A DNA stretch of 64,000 nt, taken from positions 51,646,771-51,710,770 of the forward strand of contig NC_092875.1 in NCBI RefSeq assembly GCF_028372415.1, in the 5' to 3' direction. The position numbers and the translations under genes were made by a program. The notes beneath the pieces were generated by a model that saw nothing but the letters and a program-made list of their open reading frames with translations, made no database searches and was not told where the DNA came from. Below, piece after piece: positions 6,663 through 60,179 of the stretch (position 1 is the first letter of the stretch; each line of letters begins with the position of its first letter). The DNA is from Notamacropus eugenii. Lineage: Eukaryota > Chordata > Mammalia > Diprotodontia > Macropodidae.

Positions 6663-44076
<37,414 letters not shown>

Positions 44077-46695
44077 GGAATGACTGCCTCTCTGGCCCGC
44101 CCCACCTGGGGCCCAGACCTCTCATGTTCAGGAGGGGTAGGAGGGCAGGCTCTCCCCAACCTCCATTCAGCGTTCTTCCTGGAGGGGATGTCCCCTCCCC
44201 ACAGGGACAGGGGGAGTGGGGCACATTGCAGTGTGCCTAGCTCCTCCACAGAGTGCACCAGAGTATCTACCTTGAGTGTTGTCTACACTGCCCTCGCCCA
44301 AGGGCGCTTGTGATTCACTGTATTTAAACTCAACTCCATTCTGTGGCTCCCTTCCCACCGCCCATCACCCTCCTTCCTTTCAGGGCTTCTCGAGGGCAGG
44401 GACTGGGAGACAGAGTCACAGGCTTCTCTCCCCCTCCGAACACTTCTGTGGTCTCTAAGTTTCCGATCGTTCCCGGTGTTATTTATTTTCTACAAGAGGG
44501 TTGTTTTGTTCTCCTCCCCCCATCCCTGACTGCCCAGGACCAGAAAGCACTGCCGTTCCCTCCCAAGAGAGCAGCACAGGCACTGGGGTGAGAAGGGGCA
44601 GAGAGGACCAATGGTCAGAACTGGCCTCTGTGGCAACTGCTCTCTTCTCTGCCTCCATTCCCAGGATTAGGCTGTTTGTCCTCTTTAGGGACTTGAGAGC
44701 CTATGTACCCCAAATGTACCCCAGTACATTTTTGGAGGTGCTTTAGATTAACCAAGCCCCTGCCTGCCAGTTTTGTACCTCCACATTTAGGGGTTGGGAG
44801 GGAGGGCGAGATTCAGCCATTAGCAGATCTGACAAGGGAAGCAAGATCCCTGAGTGAAAGATTCCCTCCTGAAAAAAAAAAAAAAGAGGCCAGGTCTTGG
44901 CAGATGGGTGATGACTACAGGCCTCCCAGAGTCGTAGCCTAGTGTCAAAGCAAGGCTAGGATTGTCTTTCCTGTGAGTAAAGACCATCAGCTGCCCCTGA
45001 GCTATGGAATCCTTTGGTCAGGCTGACAAAAGGGGCTGGCTTCCACCCTTGGAGATACAGTGTGTTCATGTTGGCTGGGCCTTTTGTGGTATCTTCCACT
45101 CTAGAGCTCCTCAACCTGGCATGTTCATACTCTCAGTGACTAGCTCCTCCAATCCCAGGCCATCCCCCTAGAGCCCCTAAGGTGGAGGGACTGGCCTCAG
45201 AGTTTGGGGCAGTTCCTGTATCAGTTTGGGCAGTTGCTTCTTCCTCCCTGTGCCAATCCCATTTTCTCACCATATTGGTTCTCCTCTACCACTCCCTTCT
45301 TGCCATCAGCCAAACCAGTGCCAGGGTTAGTGCCCCTGGAGAAACAGGTCCTTTTTCTGCTAAAACCAAAGTCATCCCAGTCTGGGGAGCAAATATCTAA
45401 GAGAATGTCTAGAAGCATTTTCTAATCCTGAGCAGCTTGCCCACCCACCCGCCTGCCACTAGTCCCAACCAGGATTAAGGAAGTTCCTATGCCCAGAGGT
45501 CTGAAAAGGGTTTCTTTGGGCCACAGGTGGGAAGAAGGAACCCTCATTTGGCTCTTGAGTTAAGAGAAAAACTGCTTTGGCCACTCCTAGAGGTAGTGAA
45601 CAGCGGCTCAGACCATCATAGTCCCAGACCATGTTGCTCCCTCACCTCATCCCACCTGGAGCAGGCCTCTTCCCCTACATTCAGCACTTTGCTTTCTAAG
45701 ATTTTCCTAGTGTCTCTTTTCTTTGCCAACATTAAAGGTGCTGCCAGGCTTCCTTTCAGCCAGATGGTGACCAGTCCCTAGAGGAAGGGGAAGGGGAATT
45801 GTCACTTGAGTGTTTCATCCCGTTTGCCTCTCCCTGCAGTACAGTATCAGTATTCAGCACCCATGTATGCCCCTCTACATCCTCCACCTTCACTCCAAGC
45901 AGATCCACCAACCCAGCAGAAGTCACTTAAAAGGGGAAAGAAGTTGGGCAAAGAGGAGTAGAAGTGTTTCCCTGGTAGGCCCTGCCCTAGGAACCTGCCT
46001 CTAGAATTTGTGCCTGTGGCCATGGAAGGAAGACATGTCATATTCCCTGGAGAATAAGACTTCTGGTCTTCCATTTCATCCCTGATTCCTCCCCTCGGGC
46101 TCTGTTTGCTGAGTTTGAGAACTTAGGTGCCAAAATCCATGAAGTGTCTACTTACGCTGCTCTGGGGGCATGCTCCCATCAAACATACACACTATACTCA
46201 AGTGTTATTCTCTATCTTTGCAGGAGGATCTGCCCTATCTTTCATTCCTCACACCCTGTCCTCTTGTCCTCCCCCAATTACCGAGGGCTCATGGCTCCAG
46301 GGCAGCCCACCACATTGGTGCTCCCAAAGCTATCTCTTGACCCCTGCCACCATTTCCCCTGCCCCTTAGCTGATATCAGAAGCAAATAGTCTGATCTTTA
46401 CTTAATAGGAAAGCCCCTGTGGGGCAGGTTTCCCACTCTCTTTACTCCATCCCTTTTTTCTCACACACATACACATCACCTCGCACTGGCTCTGTCCTCT
46501 GTGCTGAGACCAGAAGTAGTTGAGGTGACAGGTACTCTGCAGGTGTCTGGCCTGCTCTGCAATGTCCTGTTAGGTGTAAGTGTATGTCCTCCATCTCCCC
46601 CTCTGCCCACCACCATCCTCACACTGCCTGTACAAACCCATGTGTTTCCACACAAGGTTGGAAAGACAAATAATAAAGCATATTTACACGGTCTT
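44077..46695 (+). other. EVI5L: EVI5L 3' untranslated region
   Basis: GC-rich, largely repeat-free sequence from the EVI5L stop to the first plausible polyadenylation signal at 46672. No conserved reading frame was recognised. The end is inferred from the signal only. Confidence 0.6.
46672..46677 (+). terminator. Candidate EVI5L poly(A) signal AATAAA
   Basis: Canonical AATAAA about 2.6 kb past the stop, followed within 60 bases by GT-rich sequence. I saw no earlier canonical hexamer after the stop. Confidence 0.55.
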
Positions 46696-47334
46696 AGAAT
46701 TGGTGGGTAGGATGTTGGCGGGGGTGGGGGAGTGGTGGAGTTTGCTGGGAGAGACCCTAACCTAAGCAAAAGGGGATGAGGCCTGAGCTTCATGGCTTAG
46801 ATGAAAACGACTTCGGGTTCTTTCCCTTCCTCAGTCTTTCATGTAATAGCAGATGGCATGAGGGGAGCAAGAGAGATGAGGACTGCTTTCATTCCCCTGA
46901 AGCACTAGGGAGTAAATTCTCTTTCAGGACAGAGTATGAATGTCAGCAGGGAAAAGAAAAAGGCCAGTCCTGGAGAACTTAGGCACAATGCGGGGGCCGG
47001 AGGTGGCACACAAACTACGAAAAGCCTTTTCTCACCTCATTCCAAGCCCTTGGGTTCCCAGGGCTTGCTTGATTGCTTTGGAGTTTTCAATGTGGCTCTA
47101 AGTCCTGACTTAAAAGTTCTCAGGAGGGGTAAGATTGCCAAGAATGAGCAGACTGTTCGGTGAGATGAAATCCCTTAGAGGCTGAGGTTGAAGTTAGTAG
47201 TGACTGGGGTTGAGGAGGGGTATGTGTGTGATAGGGAGATGGGGCTTGTGAATGACGTGTTTGCATATATTACTGTTTTAGGTGGGTGTGAAGAAGGATG
47301 TGTGGGTGGGGTAAGGAGTGTGCTTATGTGTGAG

Positions 47335-47720
47335 CAGGTTCATTAAAGTCGTCAAACATGATGTGCTAGGGGAACACAGGAGAATAAGGTTTCACTCCTG
47401 TCCTTAAGTAGCTTCTGGACAATTTAACTGAGTGAAGAAGACACATGGAAAAATAAGAACCAGAGGAAGTTTGTGGGAGTTGAGAGCACCGAGGAATGAA
47501 CAGGAGAGATTCCAGAAGGAGGTAAGACTTAAACTGGGCTCTGAAAGATAAATAGAATTTCAGTTAATTGGAAAAGTGAGAAGGAAATTGCAAAACCAAA
47601 GCCAGGAGGTAAGAATGTGTGTGTTATCTTGGGTGATGAGGTGGAAGTGGAGTGATAAATGTAACTAGTCACTGGGACCAAATTCAAGACATTATGTAGG
47701 AATTCCTGCTAGCCTTCTAG
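47335..47720 (-). mobile_element. L2 3' fragment
   Basis: gtccttaagtagcttctgg, gaaaataagaaccag-type middle and gtaactagtcactgggacc; a diverged reversed L2 3' region in the EVI5L to GFI1-like intergenic space. Confidence 0.5.
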
Positions 47721-48009
47721 TGATGGGGAGTGATATGAATGGAGCTAGACTTTAGAAAGGTGAAGCTAGCAAATGAAATACAAAGGGGAGACGCTAGAGG
47801 GAAACTTCTTTAGGAGATTGATGCAGAAGTCTAGATCAGAAATAAAGGTATAAGAACCCACCTCTGCTTTGGGAATGAATGAGCCCTTCAGACGAAACGT
47901 TAAGAGGTAAGCACCCCTAATAAATTTGGTCTCCTGGACAAGAAGCAAGGGTTTAGGGGTATAGAGAATTCATCTCCTGTTAGTGGAAGGTTTGGACTTT
48001 GGAAAAGAA

Positions 48010-48260
48010 ATACCAATTGATATTCATGTAGAACTTTAAAGTATGCAGAATATTACATATGTATGTAGTATGTATATACACACACCATCATCATCATCAC
48101 TTGAACCTCTTAGCCTTGTGAAATAAGGACTTTTGGTGCTATCTCCATTTTGCAGATAGGAAACTGAGGCTCAGGTGAAATGGCTTGCCAAAGTCACATA
48201 GATAATAAATGTCGAGTCAGACTTCAAATCCAGGTCTTTCCAGTTCAGCACTTGAGTATT
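48010..48260 (-). mobile_element. MIR-type SINE
   Basis: tgatattcatgtagaacttt, tgctatctccattttgcaga, gaaactgaggctcagg, aatccaggtctttccag. Confidence 0.65.
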
Positions 48261-48779
48261 TGATTTTCTGTATCATGGATTATACTTCAGTGGATCTGTG
48301 ATCCATCAGTGTAGATACTTTCTCCACTGCTTGAGATCACAACCCTCCACACCATCTTATCTTGTGTGATTCTTATCCATTCCTTTCTGTAAGTCCACAG
48401 AAGACTCCCTGGTTTGTGGGAAGCCTTCCAGCACTTAAGATAGAAGAAAGCTGGGCTTGTGATCAAGGCATCTCACAGGACTGGGAAAAACACCTATGAT
48501 GAGGGATTCAGTAGCCTGATCAAAAGCACTTTAAAGCACGATGTGGAGAATGTAATCATAAACTTTGGGCATGGAAGCAAACTAGAGACGATCTCATTCA
48601 ATGCCCTCATTTAACTTTGGGGCCCTAAGAGGTGAAATGACTTGATCAAAGTCACAGAAGCAGAAAAAGGAATTGAACCTAGGTTCTCTAAGATCTAAAT
48701 CCAGAGAGTTTCCTCTCCCCTCCCCCCAAATAGTGCTTTTAGTAAGAAAAGATCAAGAATGAAGCCTATGTCTTCAGTT

Positions 48780-49315
48780 ATCTTAACAGTGGCACAGTCT
48801 TGAGCAAGAGACACAAACAGCTACAACCTCATAGGTGTTATTGAGATTTAGGAGGATGGAATTCAGAACAGGAATCCATCCATGAATGATCATATCTTGT
48901 CCAAAAAGAAACATAAGGGAGGCAGTTTATACATTAAGAAGCCTATGCACAAATCTTAATCTACAAGGAGAATTAATTGGTGGGTGAAATGGGACTACAG
49001 AAACCACAAGGGGAAGTGACCATGGCATCCTAGAGTTTGTGATAGCCAAGGACAGGGACAAATACTGGAGATGTTACGCTTTGCCTCAGAGGGCAGAACT
49101 AAAGTAGAAGCTGCAAAGAGGCCAATTCACACAAGGTTATGAACTTCCTAGAGCTATCTAAGAGGAATGGACTGCCCCTTGTTAGAAGTCTTCAAGTGAA
49201 GACTGGATAACCACTTGTAAAGAGTAGTTGAAGAGTGGATTTATGCTTATGTACAGGTTGGACTAAACCTGAGATCTCTTCCAGCTCTGAGATTCTGGGA
49301 TTCTTAAATTCCAAA
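48780..49315 (+). mobile_element. CR1/L3 3' region
   Basis: gagggcagaactaaagtaga, gaatggactgccccttgtta, gactggataaccacttgtaa, ttccagctctgagattctgg. Confidence 0.75.
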
Positions 49316-50087
49316 GAATCCAGAGAAAAGGAAGGTCTGATCCTGTGCCTTAGAAGAGTGAGACACCCTTTGGGTTGGAATGGTTGGCAGACTTTGTGGA
49401 GGTGAGACTTTGATGTGTAGGCAAGATTAGGCGTGGTTGGTAAGGGGACAAAGCATGTGGGTGTGGATATGGTAGAGAGGATTTGTGTGCTGAGTTTTCT
49501 GTTCGACTTTCTCTTTGTGGGGGCTTAAGGTGAGCCTATATACCCTGTGGCCCAAGAACAGAAGGCACAGGTGGGGGGGGAGGGGTGTTAGGGTGGGGCT
49601 TCCTTGGCACTCCTGCTCAGGTCTGAGGACAGAGACTACCTAGATCCTCATTTCTTCTGGGAAGGAAATCTCTAGTTTGCAATAGAAGCTCAATTGGTGT
49701 GTGTTCCCATGCCCAATAGATAGAGGTGTGGTATGTGTGTTTGAGTATGAGGGGAGCAGTGGGAAGATAGGACAGGTCCCCAAGATAAAGCCACTTACCT
49801 TTTACAACACCAGAATGAATTGGTACCAGGATGTTGGGGGAGGGGGAAGAAGATGGAATGGCCCTAGGCATCCTGCTTCTCAGCCCTCCTCAGTTCCCAT
49901 CCTCCAAGGCATATCTGAATGTCTGATAGCTACACAAGAATCCAGGCTAATCTAAACTAGCCTCTCAAAGTGGGAGAAGTGAGGGGGTTGAAGAACTAGA
50001 CACCTGAGTCTCCAGACTGGGGGAAAAGATGTCTGGATCCTATTCTGCTTTCTTCTACCTTCCACCTCTGGTTGGGTAGCCCCCAAG

Positions 50088-50145
50088 ATGCCTCAGTCCT
50101 TCCTAGTAAGAAGTAAGAGATCCTCTGGAAGAAAAAAGTTGATTG
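50088..50145 (+). pseudogene. GFI1-like exon 1, SNAG domain
   Basis: ATG within ccccaagATGc opens MPQSFLVRSKRSSGRKKLI and one base, then donor gtaagt. P2, F5 and L6 of the SNAG box are kept; R3 is Q and K8 is R. The frame is intact. Confidence 0.85.
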
Positions 50146-50692
50146 GTAAGTATGGCCTGAGCTTTCTGAGGATCTCCAGCCCCAGAATCCTACAGGGCTC
50201 CCATGGAAAAGCTGGGTACTAAGCTGCCCAAATTCTGGAGGGAGTGAAAGGCTGAGGAGCAGAGAATGAGGATGGAATAAATGTCCAAATTCAAATTGGA
50301 ATTTAAGAGCCTCAGATAGAGGTGGGGGGAGAGGGCTTGTGTTAGGAGTCAGGATACCAGCAGAGTCAGGAGCCAGAATGTCTGGATTTTCCCACAGTAC
50401 TGAAGGAGTGATGGATTCTTCTTACATAGGCTTACTCCACGGGATCCAGCCCTGTCTGTAGGGAGCCTTGGAGGCACATGGGCTGAGAGGTCCTTATCCC
50501 CAAGCCCTGAAGCCGGCTCTTCCTTGAGGTCTCATGCCCTAGCCTGGGGTGACCTCGTTGGTAAGAGCTCCCCTGGGCTAAGGAGGTGGAAGTTGAAGGA
50601 CTGTGGGCTAAGGTCTCTAGATTGTGAGACGGTGCATGATAATTGGGTCGGAGGGGTCCCCTACTGACTGGATTCATTTGACCTAACCCCAG

Positions 50693-50841
50693 GGCTCCAG
50701 GGTCTGGCCAGTCTCTGCTGGGATGGTCACTGCCCCCAGCCCCAACTCCAGCCTCAGCCTGAGACAGGAGTTACTTCCCCAAGTCTGCAGCCACAGCTAC
50801 TGCTGCTACCACCCACAGCACAGACCCCTCACCAATTCAAG
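50693..50841 (+). pseudogene. GFI1-like exon 2, Pro/Gln-rich linker
   Basis: Acceptor ctaaccccag, donor gtaacc. Phase 1 in and phase 0 out, open through LQPQLLLLPPTAQTPHQFK. The linker is poorly conserved in the family, so support is the open frame and phase fit. Confidence 0.6.
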
Positions 50842-50987
50842 GTAACCCAGGAGGACTAGGGGGTGGAGTGACAGAACCTACTCCAGCGGCAGTCACAGCT
50901 CCTTCTTTCTGCCTCTGGGGTGGAGCGGGATGGTGTGGAAGAACCCTAGCCTTGTCCTTCCTTCCACTGCTTCCATCCTGCTCTCAG

Positions 50988-51151
50988 GAGAGACTGTTCC
51001 CCTGCGGCGTGTGCGGGAAGTTTCCGGCGCTCCTCCACTCTGTCCACATACCTGCTCATCCATTTGGGCACGCGACCCCACCCCTGCCCCTTCTGCGCCA
51101 AGCGCTTCCATCAGAAATCCGACATGAAGAAGCACACGTTCACCCACACCG
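50988..51151 (+). pseudogene. GFI1-like exon 3, zinc fingers 3 and 4
   Basis: Acceptor tgctctcag. It opens [11 protein letters not shown], then two bases are missing; the frame resumes as [15 protein letters not shown] and [20 protein letters not shown]. With two bases restored the exon would be 166 nt and end in phase 1, exactly what exon 4 needs. Finger 4 keeps all C2H2 ligands. The bases after 51151 are AC rather than GT. Confidence 0.85.
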
Positions 51152-51660
51152 ACGGGGCCCGGAAAGATGAAGATGAAAAGGGCTGGGGAGTGGGGGGTGG
51201 AGGGGGAGTGGGGGGGGTGGGGTGGAGAAGCAAGCTTCCAAGCTGCAGGAAAGGCCAGAAGGACGGCCCCTCCACTTCATCCCCTCCTATCGGGAAACAA
51301 ATCTAACCCACTCTAGGAGGGAAGTTGGAAAAGAGTCCAGTCCATTGTCAGCCTCATCTCTCCCCATATTTCACCCTAGCTGGTCCTCATGTTCATCTTC
51401 ATAACTCCTCAAACCCCTCCATTACCCTACACTGTCATTTTCTCGACTAACTAGCCACCCGAACTTTATCATCTTTACTCCCCACTAGATTCCCCATCTC
51501 CCCGTTATGTAGTCCCATAACTCCTCAATTCTGACAAGTCGTTTATCCACTCTACCCCCATAGTTCTCCTGTCCAACCCCATACTCCATACCCATTTTCT
51601 TACATATACTCCTTGCCCCGTTCCAGCACTTTCACCAAGTTCCCCTCTACCCTTCCACAG

Positions 51661-51839
51661 GAGAGAAGCCCTGTCTCTGTGGAGTGTGTGGAAAATCCTT
51701 CAGCCAGAGCTCCAACCTGCTCACTCATTGTCGGCAGCATGGGGTGAGCCGGCCCCTCTCTCTCGGAAGCCAAAGTGCCCACCCTCACAGGGATCCTCCT
51801 GCCTCAAAGAGTCACCTAACACCTCTCTGGGGGTCCTGA
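51661..51839 (+). pseudogene. GFI1-like exon 4, zinc finger 5 and read-through tail
   Basis: Acceptor cttccacag. [14 protein letters not shown] and [14 protein letters not shown] form an intact C2H2 finger. A possible donor (GGG|gtgagc) lies at 51743/51744, but no exon for finger 6 follows. Reading on gives 31 further residues to TGA at 51837. Confidence 0.8.
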
Positions 51840-52019
51840 ACCCCAGGGAGAAGGGAAAAAACTGCCCCTAAAGCCTTGTTCTCCACCTGCTCAACCACAG
51901 CATCACCATCAGCAGAAATGGGAGGGTTTTGATACAATCTGTGTAGGGAACCTCAGATACACAAGTTCCAGACAGCCCAATCCCCCTAAACACAGCAGCT
52001 ACAGCTCCACTGTCTCATC

Positions 52020-52025
52020 TTTATT
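52020..52025 (-). terminator. PRR36 poly(A) signal AATAAA
   Basis: TTTATT on the plus strand, AATAAA on the coding strand, 306 bases past the PRR36 stop. The 3' UTR thus ends about 150 bases from the last GFI1-like codon. Confidence 0.75.
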
Positions 52026-52330
52026 ACAAACTAAAAAGGCTTTAGAAAACACACAGGCACACCACACACGGACTCTAGGGACCACAGGAGCAAACCAGCA
52101 AGGACAACCTACAACATACATCTGGTGCAGGGGTTGACAAGGAGTATGTCAGGCCAACACCCTTTCAGGATGCAGATGGAAGGATGTTAGGAAGCTAGAA
52201 CATCATCAGGGCTTTTCCTCTGCCCAGTTCCCCCTGCAATGGAACTGCAGATGGGAAAGCAGGTAAAATGCAGGTATCAAACAATTCAGAGGGCACACTG
52301 GTCCTTGGAATGGGATGGGACAAAGGCATC

Positions 52331-56934
<4,604 letters not shown>

Positions 56935-57549
56935 CCTGCAACAAAGACAGAGGATGACACCTGCATCCCAATCTGTCTTGCAGCACCCAGACATACCAGT
57001 ACCTTCCCCCACCCAGTCTCTTCTGCCTTTTCCAGCACCCAACTGTCCAATCCCTCAGTCCCAGCCCCCATGCTCCCCATACTTCTTTTGTATTCTGTTC
57101 CACTGGAGGAGGGAGCCAAATACCTGCCTCCCCCTCCAGCTGGGGCCAGCTCTCCTGTGTACATCCTATAGCAACCAGCCCCTTGGCACCGGGTTGAGGG
57201 AATTAGATGGCAGATGGGGACCCCTCCCCCTCCACCCCCCCCATATACAGCTTAGAGAGAGATTAGCACCATCTACCCCTCCCCCCGAAGAGCTAGCATA
57301 GTCCTGACGCCACCACCCAGGACCCAGGCATCCTATCCTCTGCCACCCAGCAGACCCAGTCATCCTTCCCCTGATTCCACACACAAACTCGAGATCTCTG
57401 CCACCCCCAATATCTGAGGGATAAAACAGAGAGCTTCTCCTCCCCAGTACAGGTGCTATTCCTGTCTCAGTGTTCAGCCTCGACACATCTGATCCCTAAG
57501 AAGACGAGGGAAAACTGAGGTTCCAGCTAGGCCTGAGAAAGGGGCGAGG

Positions 57550-58120
57550 GATCAGAAACCTATGCCTCATTTCGAGCAGATGGAGAGCTTAGCGAAAGGG
57601 GAGCCGCTCTGCTCCTGTCTCTCGCGCGAGTGGGGGCTACTGAGTCGGGGTGTGCTCCTGGGGGTGTCTGTCTAGCATCCCCCCACCCCACTCTCACATA
57701 CACCTCGATTCCAGACACCTGCTGGCGAAAGGAGGGGATGAAGGGGGGCTGCCAGGAAGGAGTTAATGGAGACAAAGAGCCCAACGCTACGGTTGTGGTC
57801 CCCGCCTCTCGACCCCTCCCCCTCCACCTGCTCCGCTCGCCCCGCGCCCCCCAAGCCCATCTCTCAGTCACCTTCAGCCTCCAGCAGTTCCAACACCTGA
57901 GTCCCCGTGGGAGGGCCTGATCGGGCCGTAGGGCCTGGGCGCCGAACTGAGGGGAAGGGGGAGAAGAAGGAGGAAGCCAAGGAAGGGGAGGGGGCTGGGG
58001 GCGAGGAGACAACAGGCGAGCCCCGCCCCACCCCGCCCCCTGCCCCAGCTTTGGCTCGCTAGAGAGGGGCCGACGCAGGAGGGATAGGGACAGTGGCCCC
58101 TATTTACGTGGACGAGACCG
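57550..58120 (-). promoter_or_regulatory. GC- and CpG-rich block, likely PRR36 promoter and untranslated first exon
   Basis: A dense run of CpGs (ctctcgcgcgagtg, cgctcgccccgcgcc) just upstream of the first PRR36 coding exon. A donor-like site on the minus strand (gctgaag|gtgactgag, near 57873) could end the untranslated exon. The exact start site cannot be read from sequence. Confidence 0.55.
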
Positions 58121-58199
58121 AGGAAGAGATGGAGAAGGGAGCGGAGAGACACGCCAAGGGAAAGCGAGATGGGGGGAGGAGGGGAGGAGATGAGAAAAA

Positions 58200-59005
58200 T
58201 AATTAAGAGATGCAGGCGAAAGGAGGTGACAGAAGGAAAGAGGGACGAATACTGAACGAGAGCGAAGCGGGAAGAAATAAAGTGGGGGAAGATGGAGCTG
58301 ACAGAGACAGACAGAAACACAGGGAGAAAGCAGAAGGGAGACGGGATGAAAGAGGAGAGAGAGGAACAGTAGGACAGAAGCGGGAGCAAAGACCAAGGGG
58401 AGGACAAATCTCTGGGGGAGATTTTTTTAAGGGGGTGTTTCCATGGCAACTGCCTCCCGGAGTCCAGAAGGCGCATATGGGGAGTGGGAGGAAGGAGAAT
58501 TTCCGCTGCCCCTCAAATGGCCTCCCCCCATTAGATTTCACCCACCTACCCCCATCAACCACATACACATACAACCACCACCACTACCCCCAAGCCCACC
58601 CCTACCCCTAGCCCCATTCTAGCCCTTTCCCTCTCTTCAACCTACCTGGCCTCTCCAAGTCCTCTAGGAAACTGACAGGCTAGGCTTTGGACAGGTTGGG
58701 GGTGGGACTAGTACCCCATTGGTCTATTTCCTTGTGGGCAGACCAATCATCATGGTGAGTATCCTTCCACATTTGGACTCTCTGATCTGTGCCTCCACCC
58801 CGGGCTTGGTAATGAGATGTTTGGTCCTGCCCAGACTCCTCCAGGGACCCAAGAACCAGGGCCTATCTCACCAAAAGACTCCACCTTCTAAAGAGACAAA
58901 AGGATGGTCCTACCCCTGAAGGAGGAAGGCACATGGGAGTGGGGGTTGGGGGAGAGACAGGATTCCCTGTGGAAGAGGAGGGGAGAGTGAGAGAGAGACT
59001 ACTGT
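58200..59005. other. Upstream flank of PRR36
   Basis: Purine-rich sequence (58200-58400), then C-rich sequence with ccaccacc and ctacccc runs. No exon recognised; LRRC8E, the next gene in human, is not reached. Confidence 0.4.
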
Positions 59006-59009
59006 GTTG

Positions 59010-59165
59010 TTGTAGCAGAAGCACTTTGAGTTTGTCGTTGGAGGCTATAGGTTTGAAACAAGGCTTTACAACTTACAACTACGCAAACTGGAAAGGTACT
59101 TAAGCTCTCAGCTTCCCTAACTTCAAAATGGGAGGGGAGGCAGACTTTTTCTAAAGTCCCTTCTA
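59010..59165 (+). mobile_element. SINE fragment
   Basis: gaaacaaggctttacaactt, ggtacttaagctctcagctt, ttcaaaatgggaggg; a diverged tRNA-headed SINE. Confidence 0.45.
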
Positions 59166-60179
59166 ATTCTGAATGTGTGTATGCGTGTGTATGTATGTAT
59201 ATGTATTGTTATTTAATAACTATAAGAAAGATAAGGGCCACAAAAGAAATATGAATGTAAGATTTGTGGGTGTATACTATCCAATAAATAAAAGACAGTT
59301 AAGTGTGGCATAGATCTGATCAGGGGCCTGGCCCACCTTTCTACAAGAGACACTTATTTTAGCCTTTGTTGGGAATAATATGATGATCATGGCTGGCCTC
59401 TGGTTTCTTCTCTTGCTCATCTACAAGAAGAGGATTGAGCAAGAATTATAACTATATATCACACATCAAATATCTGTAAGTCTAGGAGTGCAATGTTCAA
59501 AATAAAGGGTGCTGTCCCTAATTGTTCTCAAGAGGAAGGTAATAGCTGAAAATAGCCAGCCTAACTCTCCCAACCCCACTAAACTCTGGTTATGTAAAAG
59601 ACCATCATGAATATTGTTTTGAATAAACCCATTTATCTAAGCAAAACAGTAAACAAAAGTCAGGGAAGTTATACAGATTCAGATAAACTGAAGAGTGGCC
59701 GATGGTAAAGCTGGAAGCAAACACCTCAGCTCAGCCAAAGAAGAAGGGACTGATCTCCCCCTGGAGAGTCCACTCTCAGCAGGTTCTAGGGTGGAAAGTG
59801 CAGGTTTTGAGGATGAGAGGCTGACTTCTCCCACATATCTGGCTCCAAGAAAGATTTCCAGACCTCATTTGAAAAGTCCTTGCCTTGTGTCTCCTGATCC
59901 GTCTCTCTCCAACTCTTTCTCCATGTCTCAGCCTTCTGCAGAGATCTGAGATCTCTGGGGAAATCAGGAGTCACATCTCCTAATACATCCAAAGCATATG
60001 AAGTAGAGCATAGTTCCAGAGCTAGTTTATAGGGCACCAAGTAAAAAAACAATGGGATTTTACAGAAGAAAGTGGTTACTCACATCTGGGATCATGAAGG
60101 AAGGCTCCTCCTTGGAATGGAAGATGGATTTTGAAGGATGGGAATAAAATTTCAGCAGGTGAAGTACTGGAAACTTTCC

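Follow-up and report, generated by a model that had tools for sequence, protein, structure and literature searches.

A probable unitary pseudogene of a third GFI1-family gene between EVI5L and PRR36 in Notamacropus eugenii

Does the interval between EVI5L and PRR36 hold a third gene of the GFI1 family in Notamacropus eugenii, and does that gene still work? According to PMC2889900 humans have two GFI homologs, and PMC5003831 names Gfi1 and Gfi1b for mammals. The original prediction placed a third member here. The window, the whole stretch of 64,000 nucleotides that was analyzed, covers C14:51,646,771-51,710,770, and the genome searched comprises 3.45 Gb in 254 contigs of a single assembly. The names EVI5, EVI5L, PRR36 and BTBD8 are putative assignments, based on the original prediction and two Pfam families rather than on a vertebrate gene database. 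The locus, called the relic below, is very probably the unitary pseudogene of a third GFI1-family gene, an EVI5L-linked ohnologue of GFI1 and GFI1B. Its parts and its neighbours within the window are as follows.

6678-12421, + strand: TBC-domain exons of EVI5L, the upstream neighbour, from TBC matches
50088-51839, + strand: relic locus between EVI5L and PRR36, with a SNAG-type start exon and exons for fingers 3, 4 and 5
50088-50145, + strand: SNAG-type start exon (MPQSFLVRSKRSSGRKKLI plus 1 nt, phase 1, donor TTG/GTAAGT), from a sequence match and a splice signal
50693-50841, + strand: candidate exon 2, P/Q-rich, acceptor CCCCAG, donor AAG/GTAACC, from splice signals only
50988-51151, + strand: exon for fingers 3 and 4, acceptor CTGCTCTCAG kept, from homology to GFI1/GFI1B
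51152-51153, + strand: lost splice donor after finger 4, AC where GFI1 and GFI1B have GT (CCG/ACGGGG), from sequence comparison
51661-51740, + strand: stretch of the last exon that encodes finger 5, with acceptor CTTCCACAG and C2H2 pattern kept, from homology
52331-55451, - strand: 3' part of PRR36, the convergent downstream neighbour, with a long frame rich in proline and a Pfam BTBD8_C match at its C-terminus

Family membership of the start and finger exons

The predicted SNAG start exon is present. An ATG at 50088 opens the peptide MPQSFLVRSKR, the sole MPxSFL in the six frames of the window, which differs from GFI1 by one R to Q and two K to R replacements. The first 33 nt of the exon are identical to GFI1 at 24/33 positions and to GFI1B at 24/33, while GFI1 and GFI1B agree with each other at 27/33. 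Single-base shuffles of 47001-51000 (n=60, GFI1B probe only) reached at most 20/33 identity versus the 24 observed. With a SNAG protein probe the relic is the top place in the window, yet this match is weak alone (E 0.03). Candidate exon 2 connects exon 1 with the finger 3-4 exon in phase. Its homology search gave no Pfam match and no other genome match below E 0.57, and when the peptide of the SNAG exon and exon 2 was searched against the genome, GFI1 and GFI1B were not recovered.

Exons for GFI1/GFI1B fingers 3, 4 and 5 were also found in the predicted order, fingers 3 and 4 in one exon and finger 5 in the next. The two finger exons begin at the same codon places as in GFI1 and GFI1B, whose exon starts were taken from genomic sequence, not transcripts. 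Over the 42-aa finger 3-4 stretch the relic is 79% identical to GFI1 (C2) and 76% to GFI1B (C1), and the other finger 3-4 matches reach at most 58% (47 matches in all; best 150 of 4759 candidates scored). Besides the intact GFI1 and GFI1B, the relic was the only GFI1-type locus found in this genome search, again among the best 150 of 4759 candidates. When GFI1 finger 3-4 exon DNA and finger 5 DNA were aligned to the relic, each beat 200/200 shuffles. Finger 5 alone is best matched, after the relic itself, by GFI1B and GFI1 at 74% (55 matches; best 150 of 4864 candidates scored). Because another zinc-finger gene is equally 74% identical at this finger, finger 5 is evidence only in combination with the other parts.

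In a comparison with solved structures, the fingers joined together match 2kmk (Gfi-1, which we take to be the rat protein) in one stretch, residues 1-76, at 123 bits, and several multi-finger proteins exceed 2kmk in totals summed over repeated stretches (both among the best 60 of 212 matched sequences). When the fingers of GFI1 and GFI1B were searched as protein against the entire window, all matches other than those to fingers 3-5 were weak or generic. The C2H2 pattern is preserved in fingers 4 and 5, which contain no stop codons; their single-finger Pfam zf-C2H2 scores are 18.9 and 21 bits, below the cut-off of 25.2. By its SNAG start exon and its finger 3-4 and finger 5 exons, the relic is a member of the GFI1/GFI1B family by descent.

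Lesions in the relic

A working GFI1 or GFI1B protein has six C2H2 fingers, of which 3 to 5 must be intact for DNA binding. The relic has neither this set of fingers nor a continuous spliced frame. Its exons had been described as lying in splice phase. The entry phases do fit, but finger 3 is 2 nt short and finger 4 is followed by AC in the donor position. The splice site and the TTC of FRRSST are 34 nt apart in the relic versus 36 in GFI1 and GFI1B, so RRSSTLST lies outside the frame that enters the exon, which encodes 11 residues before it runs off. This net 2-nt shortfall, located between 50988 and 51021, breaks the frame. In addition, finger 3 has tyrosine (TAC, 51049-51051) in place of the first of its zinc-binding histidines. 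Rescue donors after finger 4 were sought in 51140-51640 at a donor score >2 with an approximate donor matrix; the GT sites at 51189, 51207 and 51216 are weak and in the wrong phase for finger 5.

The remaining fingers leave no detectable trace. DNA alignment detected no finger 1-2 remnant in 50146-50985, where the score was reached by 177/300 single-base shuffles for GFI1 and 123/300 for GFI1B. Fingers 5 and 6 share one open exon in GFI1 and GFI1B; the open frame of the relic's last exon continues to 51839 without a recognisable finger 6, and no finger 6 remnant was detected in the 150 bases from 51743 (145/500 and 361/500 shuffles reach the score). In fingers 3-5 the relic differs at 15/74 sites where GFI1, GFI1B and an approximate Drosophila Senseless sequence agree. 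The + strand polyA signals AATAAA and ATTAAA are absent from 51701-53500. Rfam gave no match on 44000-60000, and NCBIfam gave nothing relevant.

The relic has lost its reading frame, a zinc ligand and a splice donor, and its fingers 1, 2 and 6 are undetectable; in this species the locus is therefore most likely a pseudogene, and the word gene in the original prediction is not supported. With disabling lesions, and with no working copy found elsewhere in the genome (one assembly), its sequence marks it as a putative unitary pseudogene. If the relic is transcribed, and spliced by its signals, the predicted product is a protein of 129 residues that begins with SNAG, lacks any intact zinc finger and should not bind GFI1 sites. 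On the other side, exon 1 with its donor, both finger acceptors and fingers 4-5 look healthy, which is much preservation for a dead gene. The frameshift, moreover, depends on one assembly, and the gene might have been remodelled long ago, fingers 1, 2 and 6 disappearing in that way.

Neighbours, age and history of the locus

The original prediction had taken the locus to be the EVI5L-linked copy of an ancient EVI5-GFI1 pair. Neighbour order and relative orientation within the same genome support this origin. The loci compared with those of the window are listed below.

about C2:504.010-504.019 Mb, - strand: GFI1, ~140 kb from EVI5-type TBC exons
about C1:485.004-485.011 Mb: GFI1B, frame and fingers intact
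C14:51.729-51.731 Mb, C2:500.83-501.28 Mb (three) and C1:480.21 Mb: LRRC8-type genes (8 matches including a further C1 fragment, 25/25 candidates scored)

The C-terminus of PRR36 (52331-52828, - strand) matches Pfam BTBD8_C with E 1.3e-20. With 29/29 candidates scored, BTBD8_C occurs at only two places in the genome, on C14 (- strand) beside the relic and at C2:503.73 Mb (+ strand) beside GFI1. The EVI5 counterparts of the EVI5L exons lie on C2 within 504.161-504.173 Mb on the - strand and are 76 to 100% identical over seven exons. The C14 block reads EVI5L(+), relic(+), PRR36(-), LRRC8(+), and the C2 block read backwards gives EVI5(+), GFI1(+), BTBD8_C(-) and three LRRC8 genes(-). The order is the same in both blocks; the orientation agrees for the first three and differs for LRRC8. 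GFI1B is 4.8 Mb from the C1 LRRC8-type locus, and the closest TBC-domain match on C1, among those listed, is at 480.06 Mb, about 5 Mb away. As far as one genome shows, an EVI5L-linked ohnologue origin of the relic is supported.

Several other features of these neighbours were observed. PRR36 and the C-terminal part of BTBD8 look like partners from a duplication, and the proline-rich part of PRR36 (~53200-54900, - strand) contains many similar tandem units, as seen in translation. The relic and PRR36 converge (51740-52025), and a minus-strand AATAAA (TTTATT on the + strand at 52020) lies <200 bases from the frame end at 51839. An isolated LRRC8-type fragment with an in-frame TAA, at C1:694661837-694662007, is possibly a pseudogene or an exon edge.

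How old is the relic? By NG86 over 80 codons, silent differences are 0.83 between relic and GFI1, 0.63 between relic and GFI1B and 0.87 between GFI1 and GFI1B; the replacement differences of the same pairs are 0.17, 0.16 and 0.026. For the 43 codons from FRRSST, the silent difference between relic and GFI1B is only 0.375. Identical codons are not above GC3-matched random draws in the four relic comparisons (P 0.055 to 0.44), and the whole finger 3-4 exon shares 24 codons with GFI1B versus 20.0 expected from composition (P 0.10). Relative to GFI1 as well as to GFI1B, silent sites have reached saturation or come close to it, and for this reason the relic is no recent copy. It is an old lineage, in which replacements have been faster than in GFI1 and GFI1B yet far below the silent rate of the relic itself, suggesting selection for most of its history. 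If all replacements have been neutral since the death of the gene, and if the neutral rate is near 2e-9 per site and year, this event would date to at most some 85 million years ago, a rough bound that depends wholly on the assumed rate. In a four-sequence tree (82 sites, rooted with an approximate Senseless sequence) pairing with GFI1 is slightly preferred and no placement is rejected; AU p is 0.93 with GFI1, 0.072 outside both and 0.072 with GFI1B.

These observations are consistent with the following history. A third GFI1 gene probably arose when the vertebrate genome was duplicated. Like GFI1 and GFI1B, it would have acted for most of its existence as a DNA-binding repressor dependent on SNAG. 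Function would then have been lost in this lineage, with lesions that include the frame and ligand of finger 3 and the donor after finger 4.

Alternative readings and known systems

Could the relic be a living third GFI1 gene, whose frameshift is an assembly error and whose fingers 3-5 are restored by a non-obvious donor or exon? Both finger acceptors, the exon 1 donor and fingers 4 and 5, without stops, are kept as such a gene would require. Several independent rescues would be needed, however, for the 2 nt in finger 3, the Tyr ligand and the AC donor, and the only GT sites scoring >2 in 51140-51640 are the three weak ones, all in the wrong phase. We consider a living gene unlikely. Still less likely is a gene that worked into mammals and is intact in some relatives, its coding remnant in this species being SNAG-only and possibly competing for the corepressor of GFI1 and GFI1B. 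LSD1 is the corepressor used by both proteins. A short SNAG protein under selection could dock it with exons 1-2, having shed DNA binding, and act as a competitor of GFI1/GFI1B. The few changes in MPQSFLVRSKR relative to GFI1, the open exons 1-2 and their usable splice signals fit this idea, but exon 2 has no homology, the tail is frameshifted and the + strand polyA search of 51701-53500 was negative. A selected SNAG protein is very unlikely.

Two further readings concern the descent of the relic rather than its function. Over 129 nt of the finger 3-4 stretch, the relic and GFI1B are 83% identical, as might be expected if GFI1 or GFI1B had recently been duplicated or retrocopied. Conversely, introns are present, the finger 5 silent difference is 0.80 to GFI1 and 0.86 to GFI1B, shared codons are at the composition-matched expectation, and the locus sits within a paralogous block. 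A recent copy is highly improbable, and the introns and the near-saturated silent sites bear out the original prediction on this point. Chance, or a fragment of a generic C2H2 zinc-finger gene, would explain why another zinc-finger gene matches finger 5 equally well; it would not explain the SNAG exon, a finger 3-4 identity well above that of the other scored fingers, the exon starts or the neighbours, and it has almost no probability. The preferred reading is the unitary pseudogene of an EVI5L-linked ohnologue.

The unitary pseudogene points to three or more GFI1 genes after the genome duplications, of which the third persisted in this lineage long enough to be still legible. The EVI5L-PRR36 interval is a named place to look in any vertebrate genome. 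An intact copy, if relatives have one, would be a new member of a family with a central part in the development of blood and the inner ear, and would help to show what share of its work had to pass to GFI1 and GFI1B. No third mammalian GFI1-family gene was found among the literature matches listed, which are mostly open papers, and a published or annotated one may exist. In the papers searched, the name gfi1c did not occur as a whole word, nor did phrases for a third or GFI1-like gene; the word-start matches listed were Gfi1Cre mice or similar. Papers pairing PRR36, EVI5L and GFI1, judged by title and the start of the abstract, did not concern such a gene.

The closest comparisons are within the same genome. 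Like the relic, GFI1 has a SNAG start, the same finger exon starts, an EVI5-type gene upstream on the same strand and a convergent BTBD8_C downstream. Unlike the relic, in which fingers 1, 2 and 6 are undetectable and finger 3 is broken, GFI1 has all its fingers and an intact frame and donor. GFI1B also shares the exon starts, is 76% identical over the 42 aa of fingers 3-4 and has an LRRC8 gene on its own contig; it differs in its intact frame and fingers and in that its closest listed TBC match is about 5 Mb away. Zebrafish likewise has three family members in one genome, gfi1aa, gfi1ab and gfi1b. PMC5003831 describes these as two GFI1 orthologues from the teleost duplication and a Gfi1b; EVI5 goes unmentioned in its text. 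A parallel from another family is sox15, a vertebrate-duplication gene that, according to PMC8244163, was pseudogenised or lost independently during amniote diversification. The sox15 losses resemble the relic in that a duplication gene was lost, and differ from it in having been traced across species.
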